From NCBI RefSeq assembly GCF_004944975.1, contig NZ_SPQG01000007.1, positions 107,320 to 170,263 of the forward strand: a stretch of 62,944 nucleotides of DNA, given 5' to 3'. Numbering within the stretch: the first letter of the stretch is position 1; the number at the start of each line of letters is the position of its first letter. The notes beneath the pieces were generated by a model, which saw only the letters and a program-made list of their open reading frames with translations, was not told where the DNA came from and did no database searches. This DNA is from Halorhabdus amylolytica. Lineage in GTDB: Archaea; Halobacteriota; Halobacteria; Halobacteriales; Haloarculaceae. A program made the position numbers and the translations under genes. Below are positions 2,997-34,187 of the stretch, in pieces.

Positions 2997-3084
2997 CCGG
3001 AGTTCGGCCAGCTAGGAATCACACTACCGCTCGTTGAGCTTCCGCCCGCCGGAACGCTCTCTCCGCAACAGCGATGTGATATCC

Positions 3085-8759: not shown

Positions 8760-10115
8760 CTATTCTAAGTACCCGAGTTCTTTAAGATGGTCCTCAATCA
8801 TTTCCTCGTCTTCGACGGCTGTCTGTCCGTGAGCACGCCGGTGTTGCATCTGATCTAAATGTTCGTCAAGTGTCGAACTCAATAACTCGTAGATTTCTCG
8901 TTCATCGTCAATCCGATTTTGCTCTTCGCTTTCTTCAGGATTTTCAGAAATATCAAAAAGATATTGGTCACCCTGATGACGGAGTAACTTCCATCCGTCA
9001 GTACGTCGCACACCAGCATGTTCACGATCTAGCTCTGCACCAACATCGATAAACCCGTATTCCCGATCGGGGGATTGCCATTCTTCTTCCCTGATGAGTG
9101 GATCACCATCCCACTGTGATGGAACATCAACATCGAGAAGAGAAAGTATCGTTGGCGGGAGATCAACTAAGCAAACTTGATTTTCAACTCTCGTCGCCGC
9201 CTGCTTCGGAAGCGATATCGCGAGGGGGACACGGATAACCTCTTCCCAGAATTCTTGTGGGTGACCGCCACGTCCGTGTTCACCATGCATGTCTCCGTGA
9301 TCTGCAGTAAATACGATAATGGTTTCGTTAAGTTCGTTGCGGTCCGAGAGAGTATTGAATAGCCGCTTTATCTGGTTATCAAGATATCGACACTCAGCCT
9401 TATAGAGTTGTTTCTGGAGCTTCCAATCTTTATCATTCATCTCTTCAGGGTGATGTACGGCAGTTCTGGCGAGCTTTTGAGATTGAACCCTATCTATTGG
9501 CTCGTCCAAAAATAATCTCTGATACTCGTCTGGTGCTTCGTAGGGAGCATGGACATCCATCGGGTGCAACCAAGAAAACCACTTCTCTTGTTCACGAGAC
9601 CAGTCAAGTAGATCATCTACAAGGACCTCTCCCCGCACAAAGCGACTCTCTTTATCACTTGCAGTAACGAAGGCGTTATCTATGAGATGGTACACGCGGA
9701 GAAGCGACTGGAATAGTATCCCCTCGTGGTCAAGATTTTCTCTGATAAATTGCTTGAATGTTTTCCAAGACGTGGTAGCACTGGCATCACGCATATCGTC
9801 GATTCCTCGGTCGTAGTTGTAGGCACTCGACGCGAACCGATTATCTGTGAAACCTCCCGTCGAATACCCCTCTTCGGACACTACCTCAGCCAAAGTCGGA
9901 TGCGGATCTTCTTCTCCTGGAATACCGAATCCTTCGGTAGAACCTGCGTACCGACTTGCGAGTAGTGCTGGAAACGACCATGGTGTTCCAGGACCATTAG
10001 CGATGCATTCGGTAAATTCGACCGCGTCGTCAAAGAACGAACGAGTGAAGGGCATGATGTCCTCCCTAACGTGGTCAGCTCGAAGAGCATCCACCGTAAT
10101 ATAGAGGATGTTCAT
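8760..10115 (-). CDS. Sulfatase-like alkaline-phosphatase-superfamily protein
   Basis: A 451-residue protein. The metal-binding start is ITVDALRADHV and the second metal site is FTADHGDMHGEHGRGGHP. The region that holds the Cys/Ser-x-Pro-x-Arg formylglycine motif of true sulfatases reads TPWSFPALLASRY. It has no such motif and offers a Thr or Ser nucleophile instead. It may therefore be a phosphodiesterase or a phosphoglycerol-type transferase rather than a sulfatase (inference). It lies in the glycan locus and shares a C-terminal LxxLGY tail with the protein at 13060. There is no signal peptide, so it is probably cytosolic or peripheral. Confidence 0.75.
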   Translation of the reverse strand: MNILYITVDALRADHVREDIMPFTRSFFDDAVEFTECIANGPGTPWSFPALLASRYAGSTEGFGIPGEEDPHPTLAEVVSEEGYSTGGFTDNRFASSAYNYDRGIDDMRDASATTSWKTFKQFIRENLDHEGILFQSLLRVYHLIDNAFVTASDKESRFVRGEVLVDDLLDWSREQEKWFSWLHPMDVHAPYEAPDEYQRLFLDEPIDRVQSQKLARTAVHHPEEMNDKDWKLQKQLYKAECRYLDNQIKRLFNTLSDRNELNETIIVFTADHGDMHGEHGRGGHPQEFWEEVIRVPLAISLPKQAATRVENQVCLVDLPPTILSLLDVDVPSQWDGDPLIREEEWQSPDREYGFIDVGAELDREHAGVRRTDGWKLLRHQGDQYLFDISENPEESEEQNRIDDEREIYELLSSTLDEHLDQMQHRRAHGQTAVEDEEMIEDHLKELGYLE

Positions 10116-10250: not shown

Positions 10251-11339
10251 ATGGACGTCAGAATTGCACACTCAGAATCGCTTGACCGCGGTGGTGCTCT
10301 CACTGTGGCAGAAGAAGCTGCACGCACTTTCGATTGCCCGTTACATGTTGGCTTCCACGTTCCGGGGATCGTGGCCGACGATATCAATGCGATTGAACTG
10401 TTTGATGCACCGATCGCCCGTTGGCTCAGTCACCATTCGTCGGCCATTCGCGATGCATATTTCTCTTTGGCTTGGCAGCACGTCCCTGAGTTGCATGACG
10501 CTGACGTAGTAATCGAAAGTGGCAATAATCCTGGCTGGTACGTCCCCCGCGATACACAGGCTATCGTACGGTACGTCCACAGCACGCCCTATGCCGCCTA
10601 TCACCGGTTTCACGAGTCTGGGCAGACCCTGGCAGGGAAACTTTATGGTACCGTTCTCCGGACGTTATATGCTCAGACAGTTCCATACCCAGATGTTTGG
10701 GTTGCCAATAGTGAACTCGTTGCCCGTCGAATACGGCGGTATTGGGGCGTTCAAGACGTTGAAATCGTTTATCCGCCTATTGACGTCAACTCATACGGCC
10801 CTCGTGAATCCGCTGACTATTTTTTCACTTTTTCACATCTGCGCGCAGAGAAACGCATTGATGAGATCATTCGTGCCTTTACCAGTCTTGACGAGCGTCT
10901 TGTTATTGGGGGGGATGGACCTGAGCGAGACCGGCTTGAACGGATGGCTCCGCCCAACGTGGAGTTTGTCGGTTACCTTGATGAGGACGAAAAGCGTCGC
11001 CGACTCGGGGAGGCACAGGCGTTTTTGTTCAACGCCCGTGCAGAGGACTTCGGTATCGTGCCTGTTGAGGCCTTTGCCTCTGGGACGCCAGTAATCGGTG
11101 TGGCTGAAGGATATACGCAGCATCAGATTGAGGATGGGAAAAACGGGATTCTTTATGCACGAGGCGTTGAAAACATCATCTCTGCTATACGATCATTTCA
11201 ACAGGACGGAGTTGATTGGGATGACGAGTATCTCCAGAATATAGCCCAACAATATGACATCGATCAATTTCGCACTCAGATGCGAAGTGTAGTAGAGAAA
11301 GCTCACGAACAGACGAAAATTAATCCTGAGTATGAATAA
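10251..11339 (+). CDS. Family 4 glycosyltransferase
   Basis: A 362-residue GT-B enzyme that lacks the usual Gly-rich first loop but has HSESLDRGGA at the N-terminus, FTFSHLRAEKRID at the start of the donor domain, VIGGDGPERDRLE, and ARAEDFGIVPVEAFASGTP carrying the EX7E-type donor site. It begins directly downstream of a good TATA box. The flippase gene starts 11 bases after its stop, so the two form one operon. It probably adds one sugar of the surface glycan. Confidence 0.85.
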   Translation: MDVRIAHSESLDRGGALTVAEEAARTFDCPLHVGFHVPGIVADDINAIELFDAPIARWLSHHSSAIRDAYFSLAWQHVPELHDADVVIESGNNPGWYVPRDTQAIVRYVHSTPYAAYHRFHESGQTLAGKLYGTVLRTLYAQTVPYPDVWVANSELVARRIRRYWGVQDVEIVYPPIDVNSYGPRESADYFFTFSHLRAEKRIDEIIRAFTSLDERLVIGGDGPERDRLERMAPPNVEFVGYLDEDEKRRRLGEAQAFLFNARAEDFGIVPVEAFASGTPVIGVAEGYTQHQIEDGKNGILYARGVENIISAIRSFQQDGVDWDDEYLQNIAQQYDIDQFRTQMRSVVEKAHEQTKINPEYE

Positions 11340-11350
11340 ATATAGAATAT

Positions 11351-12814
11351 ATGAAATCTACTAAATCATTAAACCTATCAAAAGAAACAATAATCTCTGT
11401 CGGTGCTAGAATCACGCTTTTACTCTCTGGATTTATTGGTATCGTATATTTCGCTAGGACTGTCCCGCCTGAGAATCTCGGAACTTATTTTTTCATAATC
11501 GCATTTTCTCAAATCATTCAACAAGTTATCGAAGGACTGGGTAAGGCAATTAAAAAAAGAATAAGCGAGGAGGGGGTTGATCCTGAAGGCTATTTTGGCC
11601 TCGGACTATTCTCTAACCTGATATTTGTACTATTCCTTTTGGCTTTGGTTAGTGTGGCGTATTTTGTTGGATTAGAGCAATCTATCGGTATTCCATTTGA
11701 ATATATTTACTGGATGGTCGGCATAATCGCAACGTCGGGGTTGTTTGTTCTAACTAGTCAAGTGTACGCCGGCATCGGTTATCCTGGTCTTTCGATGTGG
11801 ATGAACACAATTCGAAACATTGGAAGAGTCACGATCCAAATCGTTTTAGTAGCGAATGGGTTCGGCATTGCCGGTCTATTTGCAGGGTTCGTCATCTCTA
11901 ATGTTATAATGGCTGTCACCGTATCTATCATATCAGGTATATGGCCACACCTACCATCGAAACGAACAATCAAAAGAACGGCCTCATTTGCGAGATGGAG
12001 TATCCCAAATGTCCTTTTTCAGCGATTTTATTCCAGAGCCGACGTTTTGTTGATTGGTATTTTGGTGGGAGGGACAGCTGTGAGTTATTATGAGGTTGCG
12101 CTTAAATTGACAACGCCAGCAATATTCATCCCAGTCAGTCTGGGTAATGTTCTTTTAGTGAAAACGAGCGGACTTTCGTCAATAAATGAAGATGCCAGAT
12201 CTGGGTTACGACGTTCAATTGGATATGCAGGCCTCTTATCCATCCCAATATTTTTTGGCTCTCTTGTAGTTGGCCAGGAACTTCTTGTTGTTGCTTACGG
12301 TCAGAACTACGCAAGTGCTTTGCCTGTTCTCATTGGTTTGGGGTTGTTTCAGGTAGTAAATACGTATCGTATCCCGTTTGCTAGATTTTTTGATGGTATA
12401 GACAAACCCCGATTGAATACTGGGGTAAATCTTGTAACCATATCAATCCACTTATTGCTTGCTTTTTATTTAGGTACGAGATACGCACTATTGGGAATCG
12501 TTGCTGCAACGATCGTAGCTGAGGTAATTCGAATAACACTATATCTATACTTCTGTAATAAAATATATAATGATATATTTATTGACAAGATGGTTGCTCA
12601 TCAGATCATCTCTGGAACGGTAATGTCGGGTGTAGTTTATATCCTTGCAAAACTCAATTATTTAGAACCGAATCTATTCGCCCTGTTGAGCCTTATCGCT
12701 ATCGGGGGGGCCATATATGTCACGGTCCTTTCTACTATAAACGAAAATATCGAAGAAAATGCCAGAGAAGTCGTGAGTTTCCTCCGAGGGGCGTTCGTAT
12801 CTGTCTTTAACTAA
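11351..12814 (+). CDS. Wzx/AglR-like polysaccharide flippase
   Basis: A 487-residue protein with 12-14 predicted membrane segments. It has the MOP/MATE-like start (GARITLLLSGFIGIVYFART, then PPENLGTYFF) typical of polysaccharide exporters. It would move lipid-linked oligosaccharide across the membrane to the side where the oligosaccharyltransferase or ligase acts. It is co-transcribed with the preceding glycosyltransferase. Its low GC content compared with the flanking housekeeping genes suggests acquisition with the locus. Confidence 0.85.
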   Translation: MKSTKSLNLSKETIISVGARITLLLSGFIGIVYFARTVPPENLGTYFFIIAFSQIIQQVIEGLGKAIKKRISEEGVDPEGYFGLGLFSNLIFVLFLLALVSVAYFVGLEQSIGIPFEYIYWMVGIIATSGLFVLTSQVYAGIGYPGLSMWMNTIRNIGRVTIQIVLVANGFGIAGLFAGFVISNVIMAVTVSIISGIWPHLPSKRTIKRTASFARWSIPNVLFQRFYSRADVLLIGILVGGTAVSYYEVALKLTTPAIFIPVSLGNVLLVKTSGLSSINEDARSGLRRSIGYAGLLSIPIFFGSLVVGQELLVVAYGQNYASALPVLIGLGLFQVVNTYRIPFARFFDGIDKPRLNTGVNLVTISIHLLLAFYLGTRYALLGIVAATIVAEVIRITLYLYFCNKIYNDIFIDKMVAHQIISGTVMSGVVYILAKLNYLEPNLFALLSLIAIGGAIYVTVLSTINENIEENAREVVSFLRGAFVSVFN

Positions 12815-14792: not shown

Positions 14793-16211
14793 ATGCCCAC
14801 GAATCCGTCTCGAATTGAACGTGCCTTACTTCTTTTTGCTACCGCAGCCAGCCCACTGTTTTTCGTCCAGCTTGCAGGCAAAAATTTAGCTCCGTGGACA
14901 GTATTTTTCCCGATTGTTGTGTTGTTGTACGCAGTTCGGACTAATACTATTATAGTTGGTCCGACAACTCGATATCTGCTTGGACTTCTCATATTTTGTC
15001 TTGCAATTACATTATCAACGGTTAACAGCCCATTCCCGTTGGAATCTCTACTTGATAGTGGTCAATATTACATTATTTTACTCATGGTTATGCCTGCCTG
15101 CTTACTTGGGTTTCGCGATCTCACCACTAGATGGTGGGTTGTGCTTATCCTTGTTCTTTCACTGAATAGTATTAGCGTGATCGGCGAGGTCGTTGCGATC
15201 ATTAACGGCTCACTTGTAGTTGAGCTTGCCTATGGTAACCACAATTTAATCCCTATGTTGACAGGTGCTGCAGCGATATTGAACTTCGGACTTGTATTTT
15301 CAAATAATTTTAATGATGAGTGTCGTAAACTTCTAGCAATGTTGTCTACCGTTCATCTATTTACTGTGTTTCTCGGACCTTCAAATGGCGCGAAAGTCAT
15401 GCTCGTCATTGCCGCGTGGCTTTTCGGCTGGTGGATGGTTGAACGGTCACGCTATCCAAGTAGATTCTACGGTCTTGTTTCCGTGGTGGCCGGATGTATC
15501 GGCCTTTACGGAATCTATGCTTTCTGGGAGAAGATCTATGAAGCTGCTTTCTACCATCGGATACCAATGTATTATGAAGCGCTAATCGATGGCATCCGGA
15601 CATTCCCTTTGGGCGGCGGCATGTCTTCGGCGAACGTATATCTTGCCGATCTGCCCATCGGCATTTCTCGAGAAGTTCACAATATTTGGCTATCCCACTG
15701 GCTCGAATTTGGTGTTCTTGGAGTCGCTGGCTCTGTTCTTCTATTCCTTGACTGGCCTATTCTCTTTACCCGTGTCATTCACAGTCGATCCGATGATCTT
15801 GCTGGTTGGGAGTTTGGGACCGCCGTGCTGTTCGGCGCTTGGTTCGTACAGGTCCAGTTTCAGCCTGCGCCAGTTACGCGATTCTGGTGGATTGTGTTCG
15901 CGCTTTCGTGGACGGTTTTGCTTGATCACCACCCAGACAGGTTGGCGCTTTCGTCACAAGTTACGCTTGATGGGTCGTCAGTACCACTCTCGACCGTTTG
16001 GCAGTCTTCGCGAGTTACTAGCGCTTGGGTGACTCTGAAGGAAACCATGTGGGCCGTTTCACAAAGGGTTTCCTCAGTTACTGTCTGTAGGGAGGACGAA
16101 CCCATCACGCTGGACCAGATAGGGAAGGCGTTTACAACGCCTTGGCGACATTCGTTACTCCGAGATTTAGTACGGCTACTATTGTCGGACAGTGGTTCAA
16201 ATACAAAATAG
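14793..16211 (+). CDS. O-antigen ligase/polymerase-like membrane protein
   Basis: A 472-residue protein with about 11-12 hydrophobic segments. A large extracytoplasmic loop ends in EVHNIWLSHWLEFGVLG, the pattern of the WaaL/Wzy (PF04932-like) family, where the His is functionally important. Preceding segments include PFPLESLLD and a Gly-rich FPLGGGMSS. In bacteria these proteins polymerise or ligate undecaprenol-linked glycans; here the carrier is more likely dolichol (inference). The C-terminal ~75 residues after the last membrane segment are soluble and not recognised. Confidence 0.75.
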   Translation: MPTNPSRIERALLLFATAASPLFFVQLAGKNLAPWTVFFPIVVLLYAVRTNTIIVGPTTRYLLGLLIFCLAITLSTVNSPFPLESLLDSGQYYIILLMVMPACLLGFRDLTTRWWVVLILVLSLNSISVIGEVVAIINGSLVVELAYGNHNLIPMLTGAAAILNFGLVFSNNFNDECRKLLAMLSTVHLFTVFLGPSNGAKVMLVIAAWLFGWWMVERSRYPSRFYGLVSVVAGCIGLYGIYAFWEKIYEAAFYHRIPMYYEALIDGIRTFPLGGGMSSANVYLADLPIGISREVHNIWLSHWLEFGVLGVAGSVLLFLDWPILFTRVIHSRSDDLAGWEFGTAVLFGAWFVQVQFQPAPVTRFWWIVFALSWTVLLDHHPDRLALSSQVTLDGSSVPLSTVWQSSRVTSAWVTLKETMWAVSQRVSSVTVCREDEPITLDQIGKAFTTPWRHSLLRDLVRLLLSDSGSNTK

Positions 16212-16386: not shown

Positions 16387-18072
16387 CTACGCACAGCGAT
16401 TATCAACCTCGTACACATGGATATTTGGTTCTTGGGTATAGATCAGTGATAGTTCAGACCCCTTAATTTCTCCTCGGACAGTTGATGTTCCTCCAGAGAG
16501 TGGTACTGATTCATTACTGGAGATAGTCCGACCAATAGCTAAGGCATCAAAGGTGACCTTACCATTTTTCTCACGGACGGAGAATTGTTGACCAATTTCC
16601 CCATAGTATGCACCTTGTAACGATATACCGTGTTTTGTCAACACATGTTGCGTCTCTAGTGCATGTGCTAATCCAGCGATACCGCCATCTCGTGTTGGTG
16701 CCGAGACCTCAATCCAAGCAGAATCACAACCAGACTCGTTTATTTTGTCTGCAACTTGTTCTCCATTGTAGACATCTATTGCCTGGCCACTGTCTACCTG
16801 AACCCAAGCAATACCTGATGTAATTAAAGAAATCATAATCAGTACTGAGACCAATTCTACTTTGATATCTGATATAGATTCTTTGTGAATGAAAGTCCAC
16901 GCCCCGAGTATACAAAGAGTGCTGAGGAGGATCAATGCGCGGGGTGTTACTCGAAATGTGGAAAGTATCGGAAGGCGGTAAAGCGGTTGAAAACTTATTG
17001 CTAGTAGAATACTGCCAATTGTGGCAGTACTCCAAGCGATCCACCATTTCCTGTTGTTTTCTTTATAATAAATATTGTATAAAAATCCAAAGACTGCTAA
17101 TCCCACAAGCGGGGCACCAATAACTGCATAAGACTCGCGACGCATAGTCCATTGAATAGCTGGTGTCGATGACAACTCGATAGTGAACCCGATGAGATTT
17201 GGCAGGATTTTCCCCAGAGAAACACCACTGCCAACGGGGGGTCGAGAGATATCACGAATTATAACAGGTAATATAGATAATGCCAATTTCGGAAGTGATA
17301 GAAGGCCTCCAATTAAAAGACCCATGATGTACCTGTTATTCCAGAGTGTTAATGCAAAAATGCCGGTTAACAAGCCGAAATAGAAAAACCAGTAACCACC
17401 GCCAGTCAAAAGCAAAACTGAAAGGGAAACGCCAGCGATCGCTCCGCGGAACATAGTTTGCTGATTTAACCGGTTTGGAGTCAGTTGAAAGAGTAACAAA
17501 AGAACCCAAGGGTACGCAAGAATCTTCTGATAGTGGCCTTGAAATGCCGCAATCGGCATTATAGAAGCAATAGCAAATCCTGCAGCCAACGTCATATCAA
17601 CGTCTTTTCGAGCGTAATAATATGTGACCGCCGGAGCGACGGCCATATGGCCTGCAAGGACAGCCTTCAAACTGCTTTTCAAAGGTAACGCTGGAATGTA
17701 TACCGGCCACCAACCCGGGTAAAACCCCTTCCAAAGTGGATTTACGAATTGGTACATTCCACCGTACCAGAGGTCTGTATAGATTGGTAATGCACCATTT
17801 GCTATACTGTGGCGTGCATGAAGAACTGGTAGGAGGTTCGATATTCCATCTGCGCCGTACGGAATGCCCGGTGAGAAAAAATGACTAGCTGATAGAAAAA
17901 CTGGGATGAGCATTATGAAAAATAGAACAATATAATCCTCTTGAGTAAAGAAACAAATCTCTTTCAACCTATTGTTCCGGTATCTTTTGAAGACCTCATT
18001 TAACTTGGATATAAATGCACTAAACAAGGTGTATAGTCGTTCTTGTGGTTGAGTGTAAAGGTTTTGATCCAT
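16387..18072 (-). CDS. Multi-spanning membrane protein, GT-C or PTPS-related type
   Basis: A 561-residue protein with about 11 hydrophobic segments after a soluble start of roughly 45 residues. The first outside loop reads PYGADGISNLLP, an acidic motif in the place where GT-C sugar transferases and the archaeal 'PTPS-related' membrane family have theirs. GHYQKILAYPW follows in a later loop. A hydrophilic tail of about 130 residues ends the protein. It may use a lipid-phosphate sugar. It is AT-rich and transcribed alone. Confidence 0.55.
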   Translation of the reverse strand: MDQNLYTQPQERLYTLFSAFISKLNEVFKRYRNNRLKEICFFTQEDYIVLFFIMLIPVFLSASHFFSPGIPYGADGISNLLPVLHARHSIANGALPIYTDLWYGGMYQFVNPLWKGFYPGWWPVYIPALPLKSSLKAVLAGHMAVAPAVTYYYARKDVDMTLAAGFAIASIMPIAAFQGHYQKILAYPWVLLLLFQLTPNRLNQQTMFRGAIAGVSLSVLLLTGGGYWFFYFGLLTGIFALTLWNNRYIMGLLIGGLLSLPKLALSILPVIIRDISRPPVGSGVSLGKILPNLIGFTIELSSTPAIQWTMRRESYAVIGAPLVGLAVFGFLYNIYYKENNRKWWIAWSTATIGSILLAISFQPLYRLPILSTFRVTPRALILLSTLCILGAWTFIHKESISDIKVELVSVLIMISLITSGIAWVQVDSGQAIDVYNGEQVADKINESGCDSAWIEVSAPTRDGGIAGLAHALETQHVLTKHGISLQGAYYGEIGQQFSVREKNGKVTFDALAIGRTISSNESVPLSGGTSTVRGEIKGSELSLIYTQEPNIHVYEVDNRCA

Positions 18073-18343: not shown

Positions 18344-19447
18344 TCACTCACGACCTGCTATATCACAATATAAGTCTGCGTATTCCTTTGCCGATCGCGT
18401 TATAGAATACGTATCCTCAATTCGTTTTCGCGCTCTCTCACCGAGCTCAGAACGGAGGTCCGGGTTTTCGATCAACCGTTCTAAGGCATCTGCCAGTTCA
18501 TTTTCGTCTGTGGCATCAACAAGAATCCCCGCGTCACCGACTACTTCCTGAAGAACCGGGATATCGTTACAAACAACTGGTGTTTCGGCAGCCATCGCTT
18601 CCGCGTTTGCCATACCAAAGCCTTCGTAGTGAGACGGAAATGCAAAAATATCGATCGCATCATAAAAACTAAATACGTCTTTTTGGCTAGGAAACCAGCC
18701 AAGAAAATGAATGTTATTTGTCAACCCGTGGCTACGTACTTTCTCTTCGAGTAGTTCCCGCTGTGGGCCTTCGCCTGTAAAGACTAAATGGACACTGGAA
18801 TATTTTGATTGAATACACGAAAATGCATCAATGAGCGTGGCAAGATTTTTTTGGGCAGAAAGACGTCCTCCAGCTCCAATGATGGTACCTTCTGGTAATT
18901 TCGGGGCTGATCCTTCTCGGCGACAGGTATCGATGCGAGCAATATTCGGCCCGTATGGGATGACAATCTGATTCGTATCCGCAAGCTGTAACAGACGCTG
19001 TTCCCAGGTCGAAAATGAGTCGGCAGTGGCTTGTGAATTGCTGACGACTACTGACCGGAACGCATTGGTTATCCCATTGACCACCTTTTTAATTTTCCCA
19101 TGGTGGGTATGCGAATTGTGTTCTGTCGTTACAACAGGGATGCCGAGACTTCGAGCCATTCCCGTCGCAATAGTCCCAATTGCTATTGGATGAACGTGGA
19201 GAATATCGGGACGTTTCTCGGAGAGATACTGCCAAAGTTTTCGATATCCGTCTAGATCGAAACGTGATTTCGCACCTAAATCTGTAACATCTAATCCATA
19301 TGGCTTTCCATTAACTTCTTTCCAAACAACAATATTGATTTCTACTCGCTCGTCTTCTGAGTTTGCAACCGTTTCAAGTGGCGTGTTCCCCTCACGGGCA
19401 CCGTTAAGTAGCACAGCCACTTCAACTGGATCATTCATCTGTATCAA
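18344..19447 (-). CDS. Family 4 glycosyltransferase
   Basis: A 367-residue GT-B enzyme. The N-terminal domain has VAVLLNGAREGN and DILHVHPIAIGTIAT. The donor domain begins at IIGAGGRLSAQKNLATLIDA and holds HYEGFGMANAEAMA, which carries the EX7E motif. It is transcribed in the same direction as the oligosaccharyltransferase upstream, with a gap of 56 bases, and may form an operon with it. Confidence 0.85.
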   Translation of the reverse strand: MIQMNDPVEVAVLLNGAREGNTPLETVANSEDERVEINIVVWKEVNGKPYGLDVTDLGAKSRFDLDGYRKLWQYLSEKRPDILHVHPIAIGTIATGMARSLGIPVVTTEHNSHTHHGKIKKVVNGITNAFRSVVVSNSQATADSFSTWEQRLLQLADTNQIVIPYGPNIARIDTCRREGSAPKLPEGTIIGAGGRLSAQKNLATLIDAFSCIQSKYSSVHLVFTGEGPQRELLEEKVRSHGLTNNIHFLGWFPSQKDVFSFYDAIDIFAFPSHYEGFGMANAEAMAAETPVVCNDIPVLQEVVGDAGILVDATDENELADALERLIENPDLRSELGERARKRIEDTYSITRSAKEYADLYCDIAGRE

Positions 19448-19503: not shown

Positions 19504-22500
19504 TCATCTCTTCTTTTCTTGGTAGAGGGTTTGAATCTCTTCTGTTGTCCAGGCATCCTCGTCGATGCGAACTTCGTCAATATGTCCAAACCAACTATTC
19601 GCACCACCCATCCGTCCGATCGTCACTGGCGAATCGTTTTGTTTTAATCTGCCTGTCACGATTTTCCTCCCAACCAAGTTTCCATCCACGTACGCGTGCA
19701 ATTGATTTCCATCGTATACCAAGCCAACGAAATGCCACTCTTGTGATGTTATATCCGTAGTAAGTCGGTAAATTGAATCTCCGGCCACGATCGAAAATCG
19801 AAACGGTCCTTCCCGATCATTCCGTAGAACAAACGTATGCTCCTGTGGTCCGGTTTTGGGTGACGGCCCTTTCCCGATCACGACGGGCCAGTTCTTCGAC
19901 GAATCAGTCAATGTGATCCACGCAGCAACCGTAAATCCGTTTCTGAAGGTCAGGTCGTCAGTATCTGTACGTATTCCTCCAGAGCCTCGGAATCGGAGCG
20001 CTTTTTGTTCGATGCCTTCGCTCCATTCAGCACTATAGATCTCCCCGTGGTGACCACCCTCTACGTCGAATATGTAGTCTCCGCGTCCGGAATTCATCGG
20101 CCAGTATGCGCTGTCTCCTTTGTTTGAAACGAAATTACCATCCGAAATATCTTCTGTGGATACTTCTTTAGGACCGTCTGGACCAATATATTCTCCCGGG
20201 TAAGCTACTCTTGTAGCATACCATTCTGTCTCTGTCGGTGTTGGTTCTTTTTGGTACTCAAAAGATGCATTATTGATCTCCACCTGCTTTCGAATAGTCA
20301 TCGACTCACGTGATTCAGCTTTGCCTGTTACGATGGCCCCCTTGACGGGGACGTAGATCCATTTGTTCTTATTTTCTGTTGTCCAGATTGCTTGGTAGTG
20401 TCCTGTTCGACTTCCCCCCTGGTTATACAGCTGATTAAATAGAGACTCGGATAGGCCTCCACTTATATTGTCTGATGAAACAACAATAAATCCGTATTTG
20501 TTGTCTTTGATCAATTTTTGATACCAAAACTCGTCTCGGTTAGATCTGAGAAAATCAGTAAAATGCTGTTGAGAATATCGATAACTCCCTGATTCACCAT
20601 TCACGAACCAGTTGTATACCCGATTTCGTCCCCATTCGCTGAACACGTAATTCTCGGGATATTCCCAACCCCGTTCCTCAGAGTATTCCCGCATGAATTT
20701 CGTGGCCTCGTACGTCGACTCGTCGATCAGCAGTTGGGAGTGCTTGATTGGCGTGTTGATGATTCCAAGCGAACCGACGCCCAATCCGAACCCCATCAAA
20801 GACAACGCCCGTCGTCGTTCGGGCCATTCTAGATCGTCAGTTTCGTCCGCGTCTTCGCTCGTGGAAATGCCATGTTTTTCGGATTCGTTTGACCCGCCGC
20901 TGAACGGCTGTGGATACATAGTCAGATCAACCCACGCGGCGACGTGCACGAACCCGAGCCCCCCGAACAATGCTGCGAACAGCGCTAGCTGTCCAGCGAA
21001 GCGGATCTGGATCATTGATAGTAAAAGGAACCACCATCCGTAGATGCTGACGACCAGCCACTCCGGTTCGTTTCCACTGTAGCACTGCCAGGTCGCCCAT
21101 CCCATGTATGGCAGTGCTAGGAAGAGCGCGAACCCGAACAGGAAGATTGGACCGATGATAGCCCCGAGATCCCCCGACACAATCGACATCGTTTCGGCGA
21201 CTCCGCCTTTCGAAATCAAGAAATCGATGCCACGCCCAAGTTCGCTGACGAAGTCCGGAAACACTAACCACAACACAGCAAATCCGCTGGGAAACGTGAG
21301 TACTTCTATACCCATCAGCGGCCGCGCCGAGACTTCGAACTGCCTCGCCGCTTCCCCCAATCCGACGATCACGACAGCCTCGACCAACAATAGCAGCGGC
21401 GCGAAGGCGACGACTCGTGTATGCCAGCCCCAGCTCACGTGTGTTCCGAGCACCACCAGCGTAGCCAGCCCCAACCCGCCGACGAACACGGCGCCTTCAT
21501 GAACGGGTGATCTACTAGCACGAACCCACGACGGTACCGCCAGCATCACGAATATTCCCAGCGGTACGAGCAATAGCGGCCCGGCCTCCCAAGCCAGCGT
21601 CTGGCCCGCCACACCAACCCCAAGCGCGACGCCCCATGCCCACGTCCGCCAATCTCGTTCTTCACGATCGACCACAGACACCACGGCTAGTGTCGTCAAC
21701 GCCAGCCAGGGATAGTCGAAGGCGTGGTGGTCGGCAAACCCGAGCCCGGTTCGGAAGGCGTGGCCGGGCATGATCGCCAGCAGCGCCACGGCGGCGATCC
21801 CGACACGGCGGTCGTCGGTCAACCTTACCGATAGCACGTACACCAGCAAAGCGGTCACGAGCGCCGAGACGACTGGGAACCACGCCAACACGCCACCGAC
21901 GGCCGACGTACCTCCGAGCAACGTCGACACCCACGACAACGTCGCCACAATAAGTGGCTCGCCGTGGCTCACCCCACTAGGCAACGACGCAAACACCGAG
22001 AAATCCAGCGGTCCGGCACTCGCCTCGACGATCTGATGCACCAAATACCGGTAGTAGTACGGATCGTTCCCCGAGAGGACGACATCCTCGCCGCGGAACA
22101 CCGCCGGCCAGGGCAACACCCGAAAGAGCACCACCAGCGCGAGCGCCCCAACAAGCCCCAGCGTCGCCACCGGCCGCTCGACGCGCAGGTCCGGCATCGA
22201 AATGTCCTCGAAGATACTTCCTGCCGAACCGGTGGTGTCACGTTCCCTGCCTTCGTCAGCCTCTTGCTCCACACCCAGCGCACGCCGCACAGCCGCACGA
22301 TCCGCCAGCGCGTACTCCCCCTCGCGCTTCTCGACGACACTACGCGACACCAACTCCCCGAACGTTCCCGAATCGAAGGGCACGTCATCAAAGGTCCAAG
22401 TCTCCTCCGCAGCGTCCACGTCGAGAAGTTCTTTTAGTCCATCTTCGAGATCCGGCTTCTCCGCGAGGAGTTCCGCAGTCGTCGCCTCCACGTCGGTCAT
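19504..22500 (-). CDS. AglB-like oligosaccharyltransferase with a C-terminal LamG-like domain
   Basis: A 998-residue STT3/AglB paralogue; the ATG ending at 22500 is preferred to one 12 codons upstream. An acidic cytosolic start is followed by about 12-13 membrane segments. The first acidic motif is GNDPYYYRYL, the second GFADHHAFDYPW. Where the family has WWDYG, I read VFSEWGRNRVYNWF, so the usual motif is absent. The last ~210 residues form a concanavalin/LamG-like sandwich (GFTVAAWITL, then WHFVGLVYDGNQLHAYVDG, then IGRMGGANSWFGHIDEVRI). Canonical AglB transfers a dolichol-linked glycan to Asn in S-layer and archaellin proteins. This version may be specialised in target or glycan choice. 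Confidence 0.8.
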   Translation of the reverse strand: MTDVEATTAELLAEKPDLEDGLKELLDVDAAEETWTFDDVPFDSGTFGELVSRSVVEKREGEYALADRAAVRRALGVEQEADEGRERDTTGSAGSIFEDISMPDLRVERPVATLGLVGALALVVLFRVLPWPAVFRGEDVVLSGNDPYYYRYLVHQIVEASAGPLDFSVFASLPSGVSHGEPLIVATLSWVSTLLGGTSAVGGVLAWFPVVSALVTALLVYVLSVRLTDDRRVGIAAVALLAIMPGHAFRTGLGFADHHAFDYPWLALTTLAVVSVVDREERDWRTWAWGVALGVGVAGQTLAWEAGPLLLVPLGIFVMLAVPSWVRASRSPVHEGAVFVGGLGLATLVVLGTHVSWGWHTRVVAFAPLLLLVEAVVIVGLGEAARQFEVSARPLMGIEVLTFPSGFAVLWLVFPDFVSELGRGIDFLISKGGVAETMSIVSGDLGAIIGPIFLFGFALFLALPYMGWATWQCYSGNEPEWLVVSIYGWWFLLLSMIQIRFAGQLALFAALFGGLGFVHVAAWVDLTMYPQPFSGGSNESEKHGISTSEDADETDDLEWPERRRALSLMGFGLGVGSLGIINTPIKHSQLLIDESTYEATKFMREYSEERGWEYPENYVFSEWGRNRVYNWFVNGESGSYRYSQQHFTDFLRSNRDEFWYQKLIKDNKYGFIVVSSDNISGGLSESLFNQLYNQGGSRTGHYQAIWTTENKNKWIYVPVKGAIVTGKAESRESMTIRKQVEINNASFEYQKEPTPTETEWYATRVAYPGEYIGPDGPKEVSTEDISDGNFVSNKGDSAYWPMNSGRGDYIFDVEGGHHGEIYSAEWSEGIEQKALRFRGSGGIRTDTDDLTFRNGFTVAAWITLTDSSKNWPVVIGKGPSPKTGPQEHTFVLRNDREGPFRFSIVAGDSIYRLTTDITSQEWHFVGLVYDGNQLHAYVDGNLVGRKIVTGRLKQNDSPVTIGRMGGANSWFGHIDEVRIDEDAWTTEEIQTLYQEKKR

Positions 22501-22920
22501 TACTCGCACACGCCCCGCCAGCGTCAATAAAGCCACGGGTCACGACCTAGTACCAAGGTGAAGAGAGACACGACCGATAGGTCCCTCCACTGGGCACCTC
22601 GGGATGGAGATTTTGGGCGACCCGAAGAAGGCGCACGTATTCCGGCTTCCGGGCTGCCGGACAAGAACACACCGGATCGCTGGCGGTGTGTGTCCGCAAA
22701 AACAGGCGTCAGTTCGCCACCACGCCCTCGGCGAGGGCTTCCCGGCAGTTGGCCGCTCCTCCGTGATCTCTGTGATATCCTTCGCCACCTCCTTTCTCCT
22801 GCAGAACAGAGAGAACGTTCTCGGAGCAGTCGAAATGATCCGTTACTATCTGTATAGAGATGATAAACACTCGGAAGAAGGGGGAAAGACTAATAATGTT
22901 ATATTCGATACCGATAACTA
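22501..22920. other. Intergenic stretch between glycan locus and AbiE-like pair
   Basis: No convincing gene is seen. ACACACCG and CGGTGTGT near 22665-22690 form a short stem. Promoters for the two divergent genes must lie here; the one for the rightward pair is listed separately. Confidence 0.4.
22899..22904 (+). promoter_or_regulatory. TATA box of the AbiE-like pair
   Basis: TTATAT lies about 25 bases before the ATGs at 22924 and 22927, which favours a leaderless start at one of these rather than at the GTG at 22921. Confidence 0.45.
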
Positions 22921-22926
22921 GTGATG

Positions 22927-23598
22927 ATGGAGTACGTCGACGAAACGGCGGCGAAAATCATGTTGGCGGTGCGGCCGGGCGACTCGATCCGGCGGATCGC
23001 CCAGAAGATCGACGGCTCCTACTCGTGGGTCTACGACTGGATCGAACGGTTGGAGGAGGCGGGATTCATCCGACGCGATGACGGGGTCTACATTGAGGAT
23101 TACACCATCCGAGATCGCTATCACGAGATGGTCGCGACTATCTCTCGATCGAGAGCCCCCTCGATCGATGAGGCCTACGTCATTCCGCATTTCGCCGGGA
23201 TGCCGTTCGCGTATACGAAGATCGATAGCGTCTACGTCTGGACGAATGGCGGCTATCAGATCGCCCGCGGTCACGATGACTATCCGATCTTCATCCAGGT
23301 CGCTGACCAGGATGTCGACCGATGGATGGCGTTTTTCGACGAGTTCGGCGTCCCCTGTACGATCGAAGACCGGCCCGATCCGACCGACTATGACGTGACC
23401 GTCTCGTATGTCTTGTTTCCCACTTCGGAACCGATCACTCGCGAGTGGGTCGACGGCAACCCGGTCATTCCGTTGGATGAAACGATCGATCACATGAGGG
23501 AACACCGGGTGAACTACGAGCCTGCGTTAGAGATGATCGCCGACGAGTACGACCGTGATATCGACGCGACCCACGAAGACCCCCGTCTCAAACCATGA
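22927..23598 (+). CDS. AbiEi-like winged-helix antitoxin
   Basis: About 223 residues. An N-terminal winged helix (RPGDSIRRIAQKIDGSYSWV, then RLEEAGFIRRDDGVY) is followed by a roughly 150-residue domain of unknown fold, with SVYVWTNGGYQIARGH in the middle. Its last four bases (ATGA) overlap the nucleotidyltransferase gene. This order, HTH first and toxin nucleotidyltransferase second, matches type IV AbiE systems. There the antitoxin represses the operon and opposes the toxin without binding it (family knowledge). Confidence 0.65.
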   Translation: MEYVDETAAKIMLAVRPGDSIRRIAQKIDGSYSWVYDWIERLEEAGFIRRDDGVYIEDYTIRDRYHEMVATISRSRAPSIDEAYVIPHFAGMPFAYTKIDSVYVWTNGGYQIARGHDDYPIFIQVADQDVDRWMAFFDEFGVPCTIEDRPDPTDYDVTVSYVLFPTSEPITREWVDGNPVIPLDETIDHMREHRVNYEPALEMIADEYDRDIDATHEDPRLKP

Positions 23599-24287
23599 GT
23601 CTTGGCGAACGCGAAGCCGAGCTGCTGGACACGCTGGAAGCTATCATTGACGCCGAATTGCCGTACGTCCTGGTCGGCGGGTGGGCGATCGCGGCGTTCA
23701 ACCAACGGTTCACGACAGACGTCGATGTCGTCATTCCCGACCAGGCGATCGACGATTACAACGCGCTCCTCGATGATCGCGGCTATGAGAAAACTGCCGA
23801 CGTCGAACGGAATGATCTCTACGAGGGCCGTACGATTCGGTTCGAGAAAGATATCGGTAATCCCGTTCGATTCGACGCGATGATCGATGCATTGGGCTGT
23901 CGCCAGACGGAGGCCGAGTGGTCGTACCGCTATCTGGCACAACACTCTGTCTCGGAGGACCTCCGGACAGGTCACCCGATTTCAGCGAGGATTCCGGAGC
24001 GAGAATTGCTGTTCGCAGTGAAACTCCACAGTGGTCGCAAGGCGGACACACGAGATTTGGTGGTGCTTGCTGCCGGCGCCGATTTCGACCGGATTGCGAC
24101 CCATCTCCATCGCGGCGACCTTGAGAAACTCGCCGGACGAATCGATACGGTCCTCGAACGACTCACTGCAGATGGATTCGAGGATGCGTTCAAAGGCGTC
24201 TTCGAACAACAGACTGTCCCGAAACGGGATGTCGATACTGTCGTTGACTTCCTTCGTGACGAACGATCTGGCCTCAACTCTTACTGA
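23595..24287 (+). CDS. AbiEii-like nucleotidyltransferase toxin
   Basis: A 230-residue protein with the minimal nucleotidyltransferase core: VLVGGWAIAAFNQRFTTDVD supplies the Gly-Gly loop and the catalytic Asp-x-Asp. A third acid probably lies in RFDAMIDALG, and KLHSGRKADTRDLV is the typical AbiEii continuation. Such toxins transfer nucleotides to RNA or proteins and can abort phage infection. The start overlaps the upstream gene by four bases. The target is not predictable from sequence. Confidence 0.7.
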   Translation: MSLGEREAELLDTLEAIIDAELPYVLVGGWAIAAFNQRFTTDVDVVIPDQAIDDYNALLDDRGYEKTADVERNDLYEGRTIRFEKDIGNPVRFDAMIDALGCRQTEAEWSYRYLAQHSVSEDLRTGHPISARIPERELLFAVKLHSGRKADTRDLVVLAAGADFDRIATHLHRGDLEKLAGRIDTVLERLTADGFEDAFKGVFEQQTVPKRDVDTVVDFLRDERSGLNSY

Positions 24288-24624
24288 TCTTGCCGGTTCG
24301 AATGGGGATCCAACGGAATGCTTCTCCAGATTGAGGTTTCGAAGACTGTTCGCTTCCCGTCATCCTGCTGCGCATTAGATGGACACGCTGAGTATCTTCA
24401 CTCGTTAGCGCGACCAAGTCCCCCTTGAGGGGCTCTCAACGACTCATGTCTTTCTCTTCGAGCCAGCTGATCTGATCGCTGCCGGTCGTCCCTCCTGAAC
24501 GGTCCCCGCCGGGATTACCCTACCCCGAGGATGAGCCGTTAGTCGTGGATCCCCGAGATCGCGCTAGCCAGCCACGCGTGGTATCGCCGCCAGTTTCATC
24601 TGTCAACAGCGTCAACACGCTAGT
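24288..24624. other. Intergenic stretch between two toxin-antitoxin modules
   Basis: No gene, tRNA or clear repeat is seen in these 337 bases. A few short stems such as CCCCTTGAGGGG near 24421-24432 could act in termination. Confidence 0.4.
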
Positions 24625-24861
24625 ATGGGAACGAAGCAAGTACGGGTGAGTGAACGGCTGTACGCTCGCGTTGAAGACGAGAAACGCGAGGGCGAGTCGT
24701 TCAGCGACGCACTCGAACGGATGGTCGGCGGGTACGGCCTGCTCGATTTCGCGGACGACGTCCAGGACGCCAGCGATGCGTGGGACACTGACGCGCTCGA
24801 AGCCGACTTCGAGGCCGACGACAAGGCAAACCGCGAGGCCCTCGACGAGGAACTCCCGTGA
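24625..24861 (+). CDS. VapB-type antitoxin
   Basis: A 78-residue protein. The N-terminal half (TKQVRVSERLYARVEDEKRE, then SFSDALERMVGG) has the ribbon-helix-helix look of archaeal VapB proteins. The acidic C-terminal half would wrap around the toxin. Its stop overlaps the GTG of the PIN-domain gene by four bases. It probably represses the operon together with VapC. Confidence 0.75.
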   Translation: MGTKQVRVSERLYARVEDEKREGESFSDALERMVGGYGLLDFADDVQDASDAWDTDALEADFEADDKANREALDEELP

Positions 24862-25259
24862 TCCTGGATACCGAGTTTCTCGGAAAACTCGTCGAGCAGG
24901 ACCCGGCTGCGAAGCGGAAAGCCGGGGAGTTGGACGCGACCGGTGTCCCGACGCGCGTTCCAGCGATGGTAACGTGGGAACTGTACTACGCCGTCTCGAA
25001 CGCTCCTGAGCCGAAGCGACACACGCTCAGGGACGGGTACGAGAAACTGCTGCAGTCGTTTCCCGTCGTCGAGATGGACGCCAGGCTCGCCCGGAAAGCG
25101 GGGGCACTTCGGGGACGGCACGCTCGCTCGGATTCGCTGTCAAATCTCGACGGGGCGGACTCGATGGTTGCGGCGGCAGGGCTCACCTTGGATGAACCAG
25201 TCGTGAGCAACGACGAGGACTTCGAGGACGTGGACGGGTTGCCAGTCGAGACGTACTGA
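24858..25259 (+). CDS. VapC-type PIN-domain ribonuclease toxin
   Basis: A 133-residue PIN domain starting at a GTG. The metal-binding acids are visible in order: ILDTEFLGKL (Asp), VTWELYYAV (Glu), NLDGADSMVAAAG (Asp) and VVSNDEDFEDV (Asp). VapC toxins cut tRNA or rRNA. It overlaps the antitoxin gene and lies just upstream of a TnpB element. Confidence 0.8.
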   Translation: MILDTEFLGKLVEQDPAAKRKAGELDATGVPTRVPAMVTWELYYAVSNAPEPKRHTLRDGYEKLLQSFPVVEMDARLARKAGALRGRHARSDSLSNLDGADSMVAAAGLTLDEPVVSNDEDFEDVDGLPVETY

Positions 25260-25482: not shown

Positions 25483-26745
25483 ATGCCGAATCAGGTCGTC
25501 ACTCGGACACTCAAAGCGAGTATCAGTAACCACTCGCAAGTTCGTGATGACCTCGATTCGCATGGCTTTGCCGCGTCGAAATTGTGGAACGTCGGCCGAT
25601 GGACGATTTCGCGCGTCGGGGATGCTATCGGTCACATTCCAGACGCAGATGAACTCTGTTCGTACCTCAAAAGCCACGAACGCTATGCAGACCTACACAG
25701 CCAATCTAGTCAACGAGTTCTTCAGGAACTCGGTGAGGCGTTCGTCTCGTGGTACGAACAGGACGACCCGGATGCGAACCCGCCCGGCTACCGCAAATAT
25801 GGCGACGACCACCCACGCTCGACGGTGACGTGGAAAAACCAGGGCTTCAAACTCGACACCCAGTACAATCGTGTCCGTCTCTCCAAAGGGACGAACATGA
25901 AAGAGTCGCGCTACGCTGCCGACTACATCCTCTGTGAGTACACGCTCCAGACAGACGACCAGACGCTCGACGCTGTCGAAAACGTCCAGACGGTGCGGGC
26001 TGTCTGGACTGGTGAGCAGTGGGAACTCCACTTCGTCTGCAAGATGCGGATCGAGGCGCCTGAGACGCCCGGTGAGAAGACAGCAGGTGTTGATCTTGGC
26101 ATCTGCAACACGGCTGCTGTCTCTGTCGGTGATGAGACACTGTTGTATCCCGGCAACGCCCTGAAAGAAGACGCCCACTACTTCCGGCAAGAAGAATACG
26201 ACACCGAAGGTGAGAACGGGCCGAGCGACCACGTGGAGTGGGCACGGCAGAAGAAATCCCGGCGACAAGAGCATTTCCTGCACGCTCTGTCGAAAGACAT
26301 TGTAGCGCAGTGTGCTGACAGAGGGGTTGGGACGATAGCAGTCGGCCACCCGAAGCATATCCGCAACGATACTGACTGGGGGCGGCACGGAAACAAACGC
26401 CTGCACGACTGGGCGTTTGAAACCCTGCTGAGTCACATCGAATACAAGGCCCAAGAGCGTGGCATCGACGTGGAGCGGGTTGATGAGTACGGACTGGCCA
26501 CGTCGATAACCTGCTGTGAATGTGGGACAAAAGCCGATTCGAACCGTGTTGAGCGTGGCTTGTACGTGTGTGAAAACTGCGAACTGGTTGCGAACAGTGA
26601 TTTGAATGCGGCGGAGAATATGCGAGCGACGGTAACTCCGAATCCTGAAAGGGATAGGAGTAACGGCTGTTTGGCACAGCCATCGGTCCGCCTGTTCGAC
26701 AAATCCACGGGGCGAGTAGCCCCACAAGAACAGGTCGTCCCGTAA
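25483..26745 (+). CDS. tnpB: TnpB, RNA-guided nuclease of IS605-type elements
   Basis: A 420-residue protein. The RuvC fold is seen in AGVDLGICNTAAVSVG (first Asp) and NSDLNAAENM (last Asp). Between them a zinc ribbon shows CCECGTKAD and YVCENCE, two CxxC pairs. The middle RuvC segment reads IAVGHPKHIRND, where most TnpBs have a Glu-Asp-Leu or Gly-Asp-Leu, so the second catalytic acid may be lost or moved. TnpB cuts DNA guided by a right-end RNA that overlaps the 3' end of the gene, which keeps the element in place. No transposase partner is present. Confidence 0.85.
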   Translation: MPNQVVTRTLKASISNHSQVRDDLDSHGFAASKLWNVGRWTISRVGDAIGHIPDADELCSYLKSHERYADLHSQSSQRVLQELGEAFVSWYEQDDPDANPPGYRKYGDDHPRSTVTWKNQGFKLDTQYNRVRLSKGTNMKESRYAADYILCEYTLQTDDQTLDAVENVQTVRAVWTGEQWELHFVCKMRIEAPETPGEKTAGVDLGICNTAAVSVGDETLLYPGNALKEDAHYFRQEEYDTEGENGPSDHVEWARQKKSRRQEHFLHALSKDIVAQCADRGVGTIAVGHPKHIRNDTDWGRHGNKRLHDWAFETLLSHIEYKAQERGIDVERVDEYGLATSITCCECGTKADSNRVERGLYVCENCELVANSDLNAAENMRATVTPNPERDRSNGCLAQPSVRLFDKSTGRVAPQEQVVP

Positions 26746-28983: not shown

Positions 28984-30438
28984 TCATTCCGTTCGTTCGG
29001 ACAGCGTCGCGACGACATCCCCGAGGACCTGCCAGATCTGTCTGATCACGATCGCCACGTCGAATCGGAACGACTGTTTGCGGATGTACTCGACGTCGTA
29101 GCGGAGTTTCATCTCCGGTTCGTGTCCGGTCGCGTCGTTGATCTGGGCGAGTCCGGTCAGCCCAGGACGGACGAACCACCGTTGTCGCCACTCGGTCACA
29201 CCACTCTCGATGTCCTCGTCGAGCGCCGGTCGCTCCGGCCGCGGGCCGACGACACTCATGTCGCCCTTCAGGATCGACCACAGCTGTGGGATCTCGTCGA
29301 AGTGCGTTCGCCGCAGGAACCAACCGACGCGAGTGACACGGGGGTCGCGCCCACCCTTGTCTTCTTCGCTCAGTTTGACCCCGGTATTCGATTCGGCGTC
29401 CGGCACCATACTCCGGAACTTATACACTCTAAAGGTCTCGCCGAACTCGGCGGTCCGCTCCTGGCTGTACAGCACGGGTCCCGGACTGTCGAGTTTGATT
29501 GCGACGGCAATCACGCCCAGCAGCGGCGCGGTCGCCACCAGGCCGAAGCCCGCGAACGCGATGTCGAAGACCCGCTTGACGAACCGGTCCTGCCAGTCCC
29601 AGGGTTCGACGTCGACGTCCACGATGTCCTCGACCGGATCGCCGTCGACGAGGACGTTGTCGGCTTTCTCGCGGTGGATCTTCGCGTCGACGCCGTGTTC
29701 GTGACAGGTCCCAAGGACGCCGAAGAACTCCTCGCGGTCCGTCTCGTTGAACGCAAAGACGGCCGTGTCGACATCGTACTCGACGAGGATGTTTTCGAGC
29801 CTGGACAGCCCGCCCAGACATTCGAGGTCCATCTCCGGCGCCGCGTCCTCTCGAAGCAGTCCGGCGCCGTCAGTGGCCGTCGTCGTCCCGGTCGGATCGC
29901 CGTCGACGGCGTAGGGCGTCGGCGGCGCGACGTAGCCGATGACGGCCACGTCGATGGCACCCAGGATGCGGTCGATCTCCTCGGGGTCGTCGCCGATGAT
30001 GACTGCCCGGCGGGACTCGCCGTTGGGCCGGTGACGGATCGCCACGAACCACACCGGCAGGACGACACCCAGGAGACCGAACGTGACGAGTAGCGTCGCC
30101 CGCGGGACGCGCGAGGAGTGATCCAGATAGCCGATCGTCGCCAGGGCGAGCCCCGCCACCGCGACCCGTCGCTGGGATCGGAAGACCGTGTTCAGGATAC
30201 GACGCGGACGCGGCTTGTACAGCGGCGCCAGCAGCGCCGTGACGACGGCCGTCACGAGGACGAGCCGGAAGAACAGGTCCTCACTCGTGAGCACGACCGG
30301 GCGCAACCGCTCGACGATCGGGACCGTCGTCACGACGAACGCCTGGATCGGCTCCGTGTTCGCGACGAGGACCGCCGCGACGGTCGCGACGACGACGCCC
30401 AGTGCACTCACGATCCGGTACCGCGCTCCGGCGACCAT
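28984..30438 (-). CDS. Polyprenyl-phosphate glycosyl-1-phosphate transferase (WcaJ-like)
   Basis: A 484-residue protein. Four membrane segments within about the first 150 residues, a Rossmann-like middle domain (VIIGDDPEEIDRILGAIDVA), then a fifth segment entering the bacterial sugar transferase domain: KRVFDIAFAGFGL, FRVYKFRSM, RTHFDEIPQLWSILKGDMS and VGPRPERP. It starts a lipid-linked glycan by moving a sugar phosphate from a nucleotide sugar onto a polyprenyl phosphate. It is convergent with the epimerase and divergent from the VanZ-like gene. Confidence 0.85.
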   Translation of the reverse strand: MVAGARYRIVSALGVVVATVAAVLVANTEPIQAFVVTTVPIVERLRPVVLTSEDLFFRLVLVTAVVTALLAPLYKPRPRRILNTVFRSQRRVAVAGLALATIGYLDHSSRVPRATLLVTFGLLGVVLPVWFVAIRHRPNGESRRAVIIGDDPEEIDRILGAIDVAVIGYVAPPTPYAVDGDPTGTTTATDGAGLLREDAAPEMDLECLGGLSRLENILVEYDVDTAVFAFNETDREEFFGVLGTCHEHGVDAKIHREKADNVLVDGDPVEDIVDVDVEPWDWQDRFVKRVFDIAFAGFGLVATAPLLGVIAVAIKLDSPGPVLYSQERTAEFGETFRVYKFRSMVPDAESNTGVKLSEEDKGGRDPRVTRVGWFLRRTHFDEIPQLWSILKGDMSVVGPRPERPALDEDIESGVTEWRQRWFVRPGLTGLAQINDATGHEPEMKLRYDVEYIRKQSFRFDVAIVIRQIWQVLGDVVATLSERTE

Positions 30439-33840: not shown

Positions 33841-34187
33841 CGGCGGGAACCCTCGGTTTGCATGTGCGTACCCTTTCCGGTGCCGATGTAAAAGATTTCG
33901 ATGGACCGCGTGACCCTTTCGACCGGTCAATCGACGGTGCAACGAGCATTCACTCGACGATTTCCGTGGCGATCGCGGGGTGTTTGTCGTTCGTCGCAGC
34001 GATCGCGCGTCCGGCGGGTGGACATATCCGACGATTTCCGGATCGGTCGGAGTTCGATACCGTCGAGGATCCACTGTCCGGGAGCGTCAGCGAATGGCGA
34101 TCGATGCACGCTACAGAGAGCGCTTCGATGGTTCGACAACTGGCCCAAGCATAATCTCTTTGCCCCGGGGTCCGTTACGAATCGGCA
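33841..34187. other. Intergenic stretch between divergent genes
   Basis: No gene is seen in 347 bases. It must contain the promoters of the DUF4330-like operon and of the rhomboid gene; an ATAATC patch near 34152 is the most AT-rich part near the latter. Confidence 0.4.

Follow-up and report, generated by a model that had tools for sequence, protein, structure and literature searches.

What does a homologue of the archaeal oligosaccharyltransferase AglB do when the signature of its acceptor pocket is missing? To our knowledge, the STT3-family oligosaccharyltransferases that have been characterised recognise a +2 Ser/Thr through their WWDYG motif. The question is raised by a gene in the window (i.e. 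the whole stretch of 62,944 nucleotides of Halorhabdus amylolytica that was analysed). Its enclosing open reading frame spans 19504-22536 on the minus strand, and we chose the start at 22500 because the Met there is conserved across the family of relatives. The features of the encoded protein are:

19504-22500, minus strand: STT3/AglB paralogue without WWDYG, 998 aa (open reading frame list, Pfam, family comparison and AlphaFold)
22270-22500, minus strand: winged-helix-like N-terminal domain, residues 1-77 (alpha-alpha-alpha-beta-beta-alpha in the model, with high pLDDT)
20737-22173, minus strand: multi-spanning STT3-like membrane domain, about residues 110-588 (Pfam, AlphaFold and Foldseek)
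20155-20346, minus strand: weak AglB_L1 (P1)-like domain, residues about 719-782 (below the Pfam cut-off; just before the tail)
19507-20118, minus strand: C-terminal LamG/ConA-like lectin tail, about residues 795-998 (PF13385 Laminin_G_3, E=1.3e-24)

The 998-aa protein matches Pfam STT3 above the cut-off (44.1 bits against 24.5, E=2.7e-11) and reaches 153.5 bits with TIGR04154, the NCBIfam model of archaeal AglB, which is far under the cut-off of 450. Structure prediction, proposed as a check in the original prediction, yielded an AglB-like fold: for the AlphaFold model made from 27 family sequences (mean pLDDT 83.7), the top solved match in Foldseek is Archaeoglobus fulgidus AglB (7e9s, E=4e-19). 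The winged-helix-like N-terminus, presumably cytosolic, is general in that it is found in nearly all relatives; searched alone against Pfam and the PDB, this domain gave no significant match (best Foldseek E=0.29), and several of the insignificant Foldseek matches are winged-helix regulators. At the other end, the LamG-like sandwich that had been proposed from the letters is indeed fused to the C-terminus, as indicated by the Laminin_G_3 match and by lectin sandwiches among the Foldseek results for the tail. It is an extra part rather than the ordinary AglB peripheral domain, and a weak AglB_L1-like stretch precedes it. Foldseek matches to clostridial neurotoxin and sialidase were set aside, the lectin sandwich being merely what they have in common with the tail. 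Although the tail was at first expected to be the key feature, and the original prediction stressed it as such, only 13 of the 65 distinct family open reading frames carry a LamG-like tail, on branches scattered over the tree, which does not bear out that emphasis. The LamG tail, recognised as a lectin-like domain from profile and fold, is optional.

We then compared the catalytic residues and the acceptor pocket, using residue numbers of the window protein and column statistics from 62 aligned family sequences:

22057-22071, minus strand: first acidic motif, GNDPY (N145 in 62/62, D146 in 62/62)
21724-21732, minus strand: second acidic motif, DHH (D257 in 61/62, H258 in 62/62)
21193-21195, minus strand: Glu of external loop 5 (EL5), E436 (61/62; lines up with the Glu of TVGE in AglB)
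21001-21003, minus strand: Arg of QxRF, R500 (62/62)
20596-20640, minus strand: replacement of WWDYG, SEWGRNRVYNWFVNG (family pattern S-x-W-G-x-N-R-x-Y-N-Y-F-V-x-G, from the profile alignment)

The acidic motifs GNDPYYYRYL and DHHAFDYPW, said at the outset to be kept, both occur as quoted in the open reading frame, and the string SEWGRNRVYNWF reported for the WWDYG site was confirmed. WWDYG occurs in none of the 65 distinct family open reading frames but in all 50 canonical haloarchaeal AglB loci examined, so its absence is a fixed feature of the family and not a matter of chance. The WWDYG columns of the family were assigned by profile alignment with canonical AglB (hhalign profile-profile, E=8.7e-37), in which EYPENY-VFSEWGRNR aligns with EYPDGAYGVLSWWDYGH of the canonical haloarchaeal protein. 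In these columns, the first W is never W (R/Q/E/K instead) and the second is always W (W623), while D is mostly G (Asp in 3/62), Y is mostly R/Q/K and G is mostly N; R627 and N630 follow, each in 62/62. The motif S-x-W-G-x-N-R-x-Y-N-Y is common to all 62 aligned sequences. As to the DK/MI motif, no conserved D..K is seen in the columns for residues 669-680 and 696-705, variant DK motifs being of a kind that only a structure can reveal (PMC3703281). Because the Ser/Thr pocket is formed by the Trp-Trp-Asp of WWDYG together with the Lys/Ile of DK/MI (PMC3703281), one would not expect the family to recognise a +2 Ser/Thr by the known mechanism. The alignment thus indicates that the catalytic centre of AglB/STT3 is kept and that an invariant SxWGxNRxYNY stands in place of the Ser/Thr (+2) pocket. 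The very invariance of the replacement speaks for a new specificity and against decay of the pocket.

A first scan, which covered named genomes, turned up 34 family loci in haloarchaea, none with WWDYG. In a sample of 391 genomes spread evenly over the haloarchaeal class, the family is present in 216 genomes and in 60 of 86 genera. Canonical AglB scores above its cut-off in 384 of the 391, which suggests that the paralogue is not redundant with it; the window genome likewise encodes a second, canonical AglB with WWDYG on another contig, as a search suggested in the original prediction showed. Outside the class, a phylum-wide search returned AglB-level matches only (about 57-81 bits). Of the 14 loci retrieved through it, 13 lie outside the class and one is a haloarchaeal canonical AglB; all 14 have WWDYG, so that none of them is an intermediate between the family and AglB. 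In the tree, the 30 sampled paralogues make up one side of a branch with an SH-aLRT of 100, and the family is thus one clade. Database names of its members are 'hypothetical protein', 'STT3 domain-containing protein' and 'LamG-like jellyroll fold domain-containing protein', and the paralogue may have been described earlier under another name (e.g. in glycosylation work on Haloarcula hispanica). Halorussus aquaticus has two near-identical transferase copies (loci L004 and L028) near opposite ends of the chromosome record, one of them locally frame-shifted in the membrane part, and the Haloarcula japonica copy (L031:9581-12741) is broken into two open frames by a frameshift or an assembly error.

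The surroundings of the transferase in the window bear on the donor. They comprise:

28984-30438, minus strand: PF02397 polyprenyl-phosphate sugar-1-phosphate transferase (phosphoglycosyl transferase, PGT), the only PF02397 gene of the genome
31100-31912, minus strand: UppP/BacA polyprenyl-pyrophosphate phosphatase, the only UppP of the genome
27967-28965, plus strand: NAD-dependent sugar-nucleotide epimerase, found repeatedly beside family members
18344-19447, minus strand: GT4 glycosyltransferase, just downstream of the transferase
16387-18072, minus strand: multi-spanning membrane protein that matches nothing in Pfam, probably belonging to the glycan locus
14793-16211, plus strand: Wzy_C-like membrane protein of the O-antigen polymerase/ligase type (below the Pfam cut-off)
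11351-12814, plus strand: Wzx-type polysaccharide flippase
10251-11339, plus strand: GT4 glycosyltransferase
8760-10115, minus strand: sulfatase-family protein
6788-7903, minus strand: GT4 glycosyltransferase

A gene for a TnpB/Cas12f1-like transposon protein (25483-26745, plus strand) separates the transferase from the PGT/UppP module; the locus has probably been interrupted by an insertion of the IS605 type. Beside the transferase, a helix-turn-helix gene, a DUF6036/aminoglycoside-adenylyltransferase-like nucleotidyltransferase and a PIN-like short open reading frame stand in a row (22921-25259, plus strand) that looks like one or two toxin-antitoxin pairs. A DUF4330 protein (32719-34074, minus strand), found near the family in several genera (7 of 35 loci, and 5/20 in another comparison), is a possible further component of the pathway. 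The start of the window holds a weak RNA-ligase-like open reading frame (1021-2097) and one of the RtcB family (3034-4533), both on the plus strand and unrelated to the transferase.

A PF02397 homologue is present in 22 of the 35 loci compared (34 relatives and the window). When 20 paralogue loci were set against 20 canonical AglB loci, with 19 genomes common to both, PF02397 lay within about 9 kb in 10/20 of the former and 0/20 of the latter (Fisher p=4e-4). Across the 391 genomes, 202 have both paralogue and PF02397, 14 the paralogue only, 39 the PGT only and 136 neither (Fisher p=1e-51); in the 28 genera that are mixed for the paralogue, the same table reads 104/11/9/90 (CMH z=11.4). Co-occurrence with UppP is similar (p=2e-38, within-genus CMH z=10.2), and at least 22 genomes, counted among hand-picked matches, have a UppP gene no more than 1.5 kb from the paralogue. 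In these searches, Haloferax volcanii came out with neither PGT nor UppP. Genomes of one genus are not independent, which applies to these co-occurrence statistics as well as to the acceptor statistics below. PGT/UppP co-occurrence and gene neighbourhood together point to a lipid-pyrophosphate-linked glycan as the donor of the paralogue. Archaeal N-glycans characterised up to 2015, by contrast, derive from dolichol monophosphate (PMC4476749). The 39 genomes with PF02397 and no paralogue (e.g. in genus groups g37, g12 and g62) imply that the pyrophosphate-linked glycan has another fate there.

For the acceptor, we took from each genome the surface glycoprotein with the best-scoring TIGR04207 (halo_sig_pep) signal, which may not be the S-layer protein everywhere, and placed the mature N-terminus at the poly-Ala end of the signal. 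In a first set of nine genera (eight mixed for the paralogue, the ninth that of the window genome), Asn occurs within mature residues 1-4 in 31/36 genomes with the paralogue and 8/39 without it (p=9e-9, within-genus CMH z=5.4). This pattern had been seen by eye before its test, and the criterion was therefore fixed before a replicate of 78 other genomes, in which the counts are 27/32 and 5/28 (p=3e-7; genus means 0.91 and 0.10), or 29/38 and 7/35 when unparsed sequences read by hand are added. In the combined sets, an early Asn is found in 60/74 genomes with the paralogue and 15/74 without it (p=8e-14), the exceptions being 14 of 74 paralogue genomes that lack one and 15 of 74 paralogue-free genomes that have one. 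Asn alone differs: no other residue at positions 1-4 separates the two groups in the combined sets, nor do mature residues 5-8. Among the script-parsed Asn residues of paralogue genomes, 42 of 58 stand outside N-X-S/T. The protein of the window genome itself reads ...GGAAA/GNRAASGG, the slash marking the end of the signal. This correlation suggests that the acceptor is an Asn close to the mature N-terminus of S-layer-type glycoproteins, a +2 Ser/Thr not being required. The original proposal, that the acceptor sequon of the transferase may differ, is thus well supported by (i) the kept catalytic residues, (ii) the invariant new motif at the +2 pocket and (iii) the mature N-terminal Asn, mostly outside N-X-S/T, in S-layer-type proteins of carrier genomes. 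It did not mention the winged-helix-like N-terminus, the breadth of the family or its association with a phosphoglycosyl transferase and UppP. We consider it probable that the paralogue is a second haloarchaeal oligosaccharyltransferase, which would move pyrophosphate-linked glycans to an Asn at the mature N-terminus of S-layer-type glycoproteins without requiring a +2 Ser/Thr, and that this activity also covers Asn-2 of Halobacterium.

Other readings have to be weighed against this one. The window locus, with its sulfatase-family protein, GT4s, flippase, PGT and UppP, is like a Wzx/Wzy cluster, and an exopolysaccharide cluster of similar make-up is known from Haloarcula hispanica (PMC5467301). 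The paralogue could then be a polysaccharide ligase that passes a pyrophosphate-linked polymer to a non-protein acceptor (a membrane lipid or another surface glycan) and thereby ends the pathway encoded by an exo- or surface-polysaccharide locus; we regard this as unlikely, as it does not predict an Asn- and position-specific N-terminal signature that tracks the gene within genera. Transfer to Ser/Thr by an O-oligosaccharyltransferase of the S-layer would suit the loss of the Asn-sequon pocket, and haloarchaeal S-layers bear O-linked disaccharides whose transferase is not known (PMC10384203, PMC9943897). However, the signature is in Asn and not in Ser/Thr. In addition, the genomes of group g34, which we take to be Haloferax-like from an S-layer N-terminus of the Haloferax volcanii type, are without the gene, yet O-glycans have been described in Haloferax, and we therefore find this reading highly improbable.

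The homology and the kept catalytic residues are also what one would see in a standard N-X-S/T oligosaccharyltransferase whose pocket has degenerated and which is redundant with AglB. Such an enzyme is hardly credible here given the invariance of the replacement motif, a gene neighbourhood unlike that of canonical AglB and the large share of associated Asn residues without a sequon. We give the least credence to a pseudoenzyme or regulator, with a winged helix inside and LamG outside and no glycan transfer: it would account for the winged-helix-like N-terminal domain but not for catalytic residues that are conserved in 61-62 of 62 sequences.

The reading as an oligosaccharyltransferase for N-terminal Asn gains from Halobacterium. 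Genome G018, assigned to H. salinarum on the sole basis of a bacteriorhodopsin 100% identical to that of the species, carries a paralogue of 773 aa (L162:8903-11224) with YVFSRWSRNRLYNWF at the WWDYG site. Downstream of it are GlmS, two sugar nucleotidyltransferases and the only PF02397 gene of the genome (beginning 4.3 kb downstream), and 3.3 kb upstream is an S-layer-type gene whose product ends in PGF-CTERM; the search for UppP found none in this genome. Over the published peptide of the H. salinarum S-layer protein, the product of the S-layer-type gene shows 83% identity, so that G018 may instead be a close relative; the inferred mature start of this product, ANADQ, has Asn-2 with Asp at +2. 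In the Halobacterium S-layer, as a 2010 review relates (PMC2952790), Asn-2 bears a repeating-unit glycan from a bacitracin-sensitive lipid-pyrophosphate carrier, and this glycosylation is unaffected when Ser-4 is replaced by Val, Leu or Asn; the review states that there is no suitable explanation and that a single oligosaccharyltransferase gene had been found. A 2019 paper left the role of AglB in the Asn-2 glycan open (PMC6591318). We predict that the Halobacterium orthologue is a candidate enzyme for the Asn-2 repeating-unit glycan. With only slightly more reserve than above, we also think it likely that the family as a whole is a widespread, N-X-S/T-independent oligosaccharyltransferase, marked by SxWGxNRxYNY, that uses pyrophosphate-linked glycans on the mature N-terminal Asn and so explains an Asn-2 with a replaceable Ser-4.

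In the pathway that we envisage, the PF02397 phosphoglycosyl transferase would start the glycan on polyprenyl phosphate, glycosyltransferases would lengthen it on the lipid, and a Wzx-like flippase would turn it outward, perhaps with polymerisation. The paralogue would then move the glycan to the mature N-terminal Asn of the surface glycoprotein, and UppP would recycle the spent carrier. The LamG tail and the winged-helix N-terminus would be accessories, the former perhaps docking outside on a glycan or surface protein and the latter perhaps docking inside on partner enzymes. If this is correct, a sister family of AglB does without +2 reading and chooses its Asn by position at the front of the protein, which is a different targeting principle. 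It would also supply the gene for a puzzle open since 1998, i.e. two N-glycans on the Halobacterium S-layer and one recognised oligosaccharyltransferase gene. This puzzle, in which one of the two N-glycans is bacitracin-sensitive and independent of a +2 Ser, is among the oldest in prokaryotic glycobiology and becomes testable by one deletion. The paralogue may, furthermore, serve as a tool for N-terminal glycosylation.

Among known systems, the H. salinarum Asn-2 transferase activity (Zeitler 1998, as cited in PMC2952790) is the predicted match in its lipid-pyrophosphate donor, N-terminal Asn and dispensable +2 Ser; the Halobacterium genome has a paralogue near the S-layer gene, and, as the activity is not assigned to a known gene, identity of the two is a prediction. 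With AglB (the archaeal STT3 of GT66, e.g. A. fulgidus AglB-L, 7e9s/3waj, and haloarchaeal TIGR04154 proteins), the paralogue shares the fold, the GND and DHH acidic motifs, the EL5 Glu, the QxRF Arg and a P1-like domain. It differs in having no WWDYG and, as far as the sequence columns show, no DK pattern, in its added winged-helix N-terminus and optional LamG tail, and in its separate clade and PGT/UppP neighbourhood. A DPY19-like C-mannosyltransferase was considered for its fold match and dropped in view of the pyrophosphate-chemistry context. DPY19, which C-mannosylates Trp from Dol-P-Man, has the STT3-like fold in common with the paralogue (Foldseek E=4e-7) but, unlike it, no link to PGT or UppP. 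Campylobacter PglB, with PglC, likewise combines an STT3 homologue and a phosphoglycosyl transferase with a lipid-pyrophosphate donor, as we propose for the paralogue; PglB, however, has WWDYG and reads N-X-S/T, and it is in this pocket that the paralogue family departs from it.
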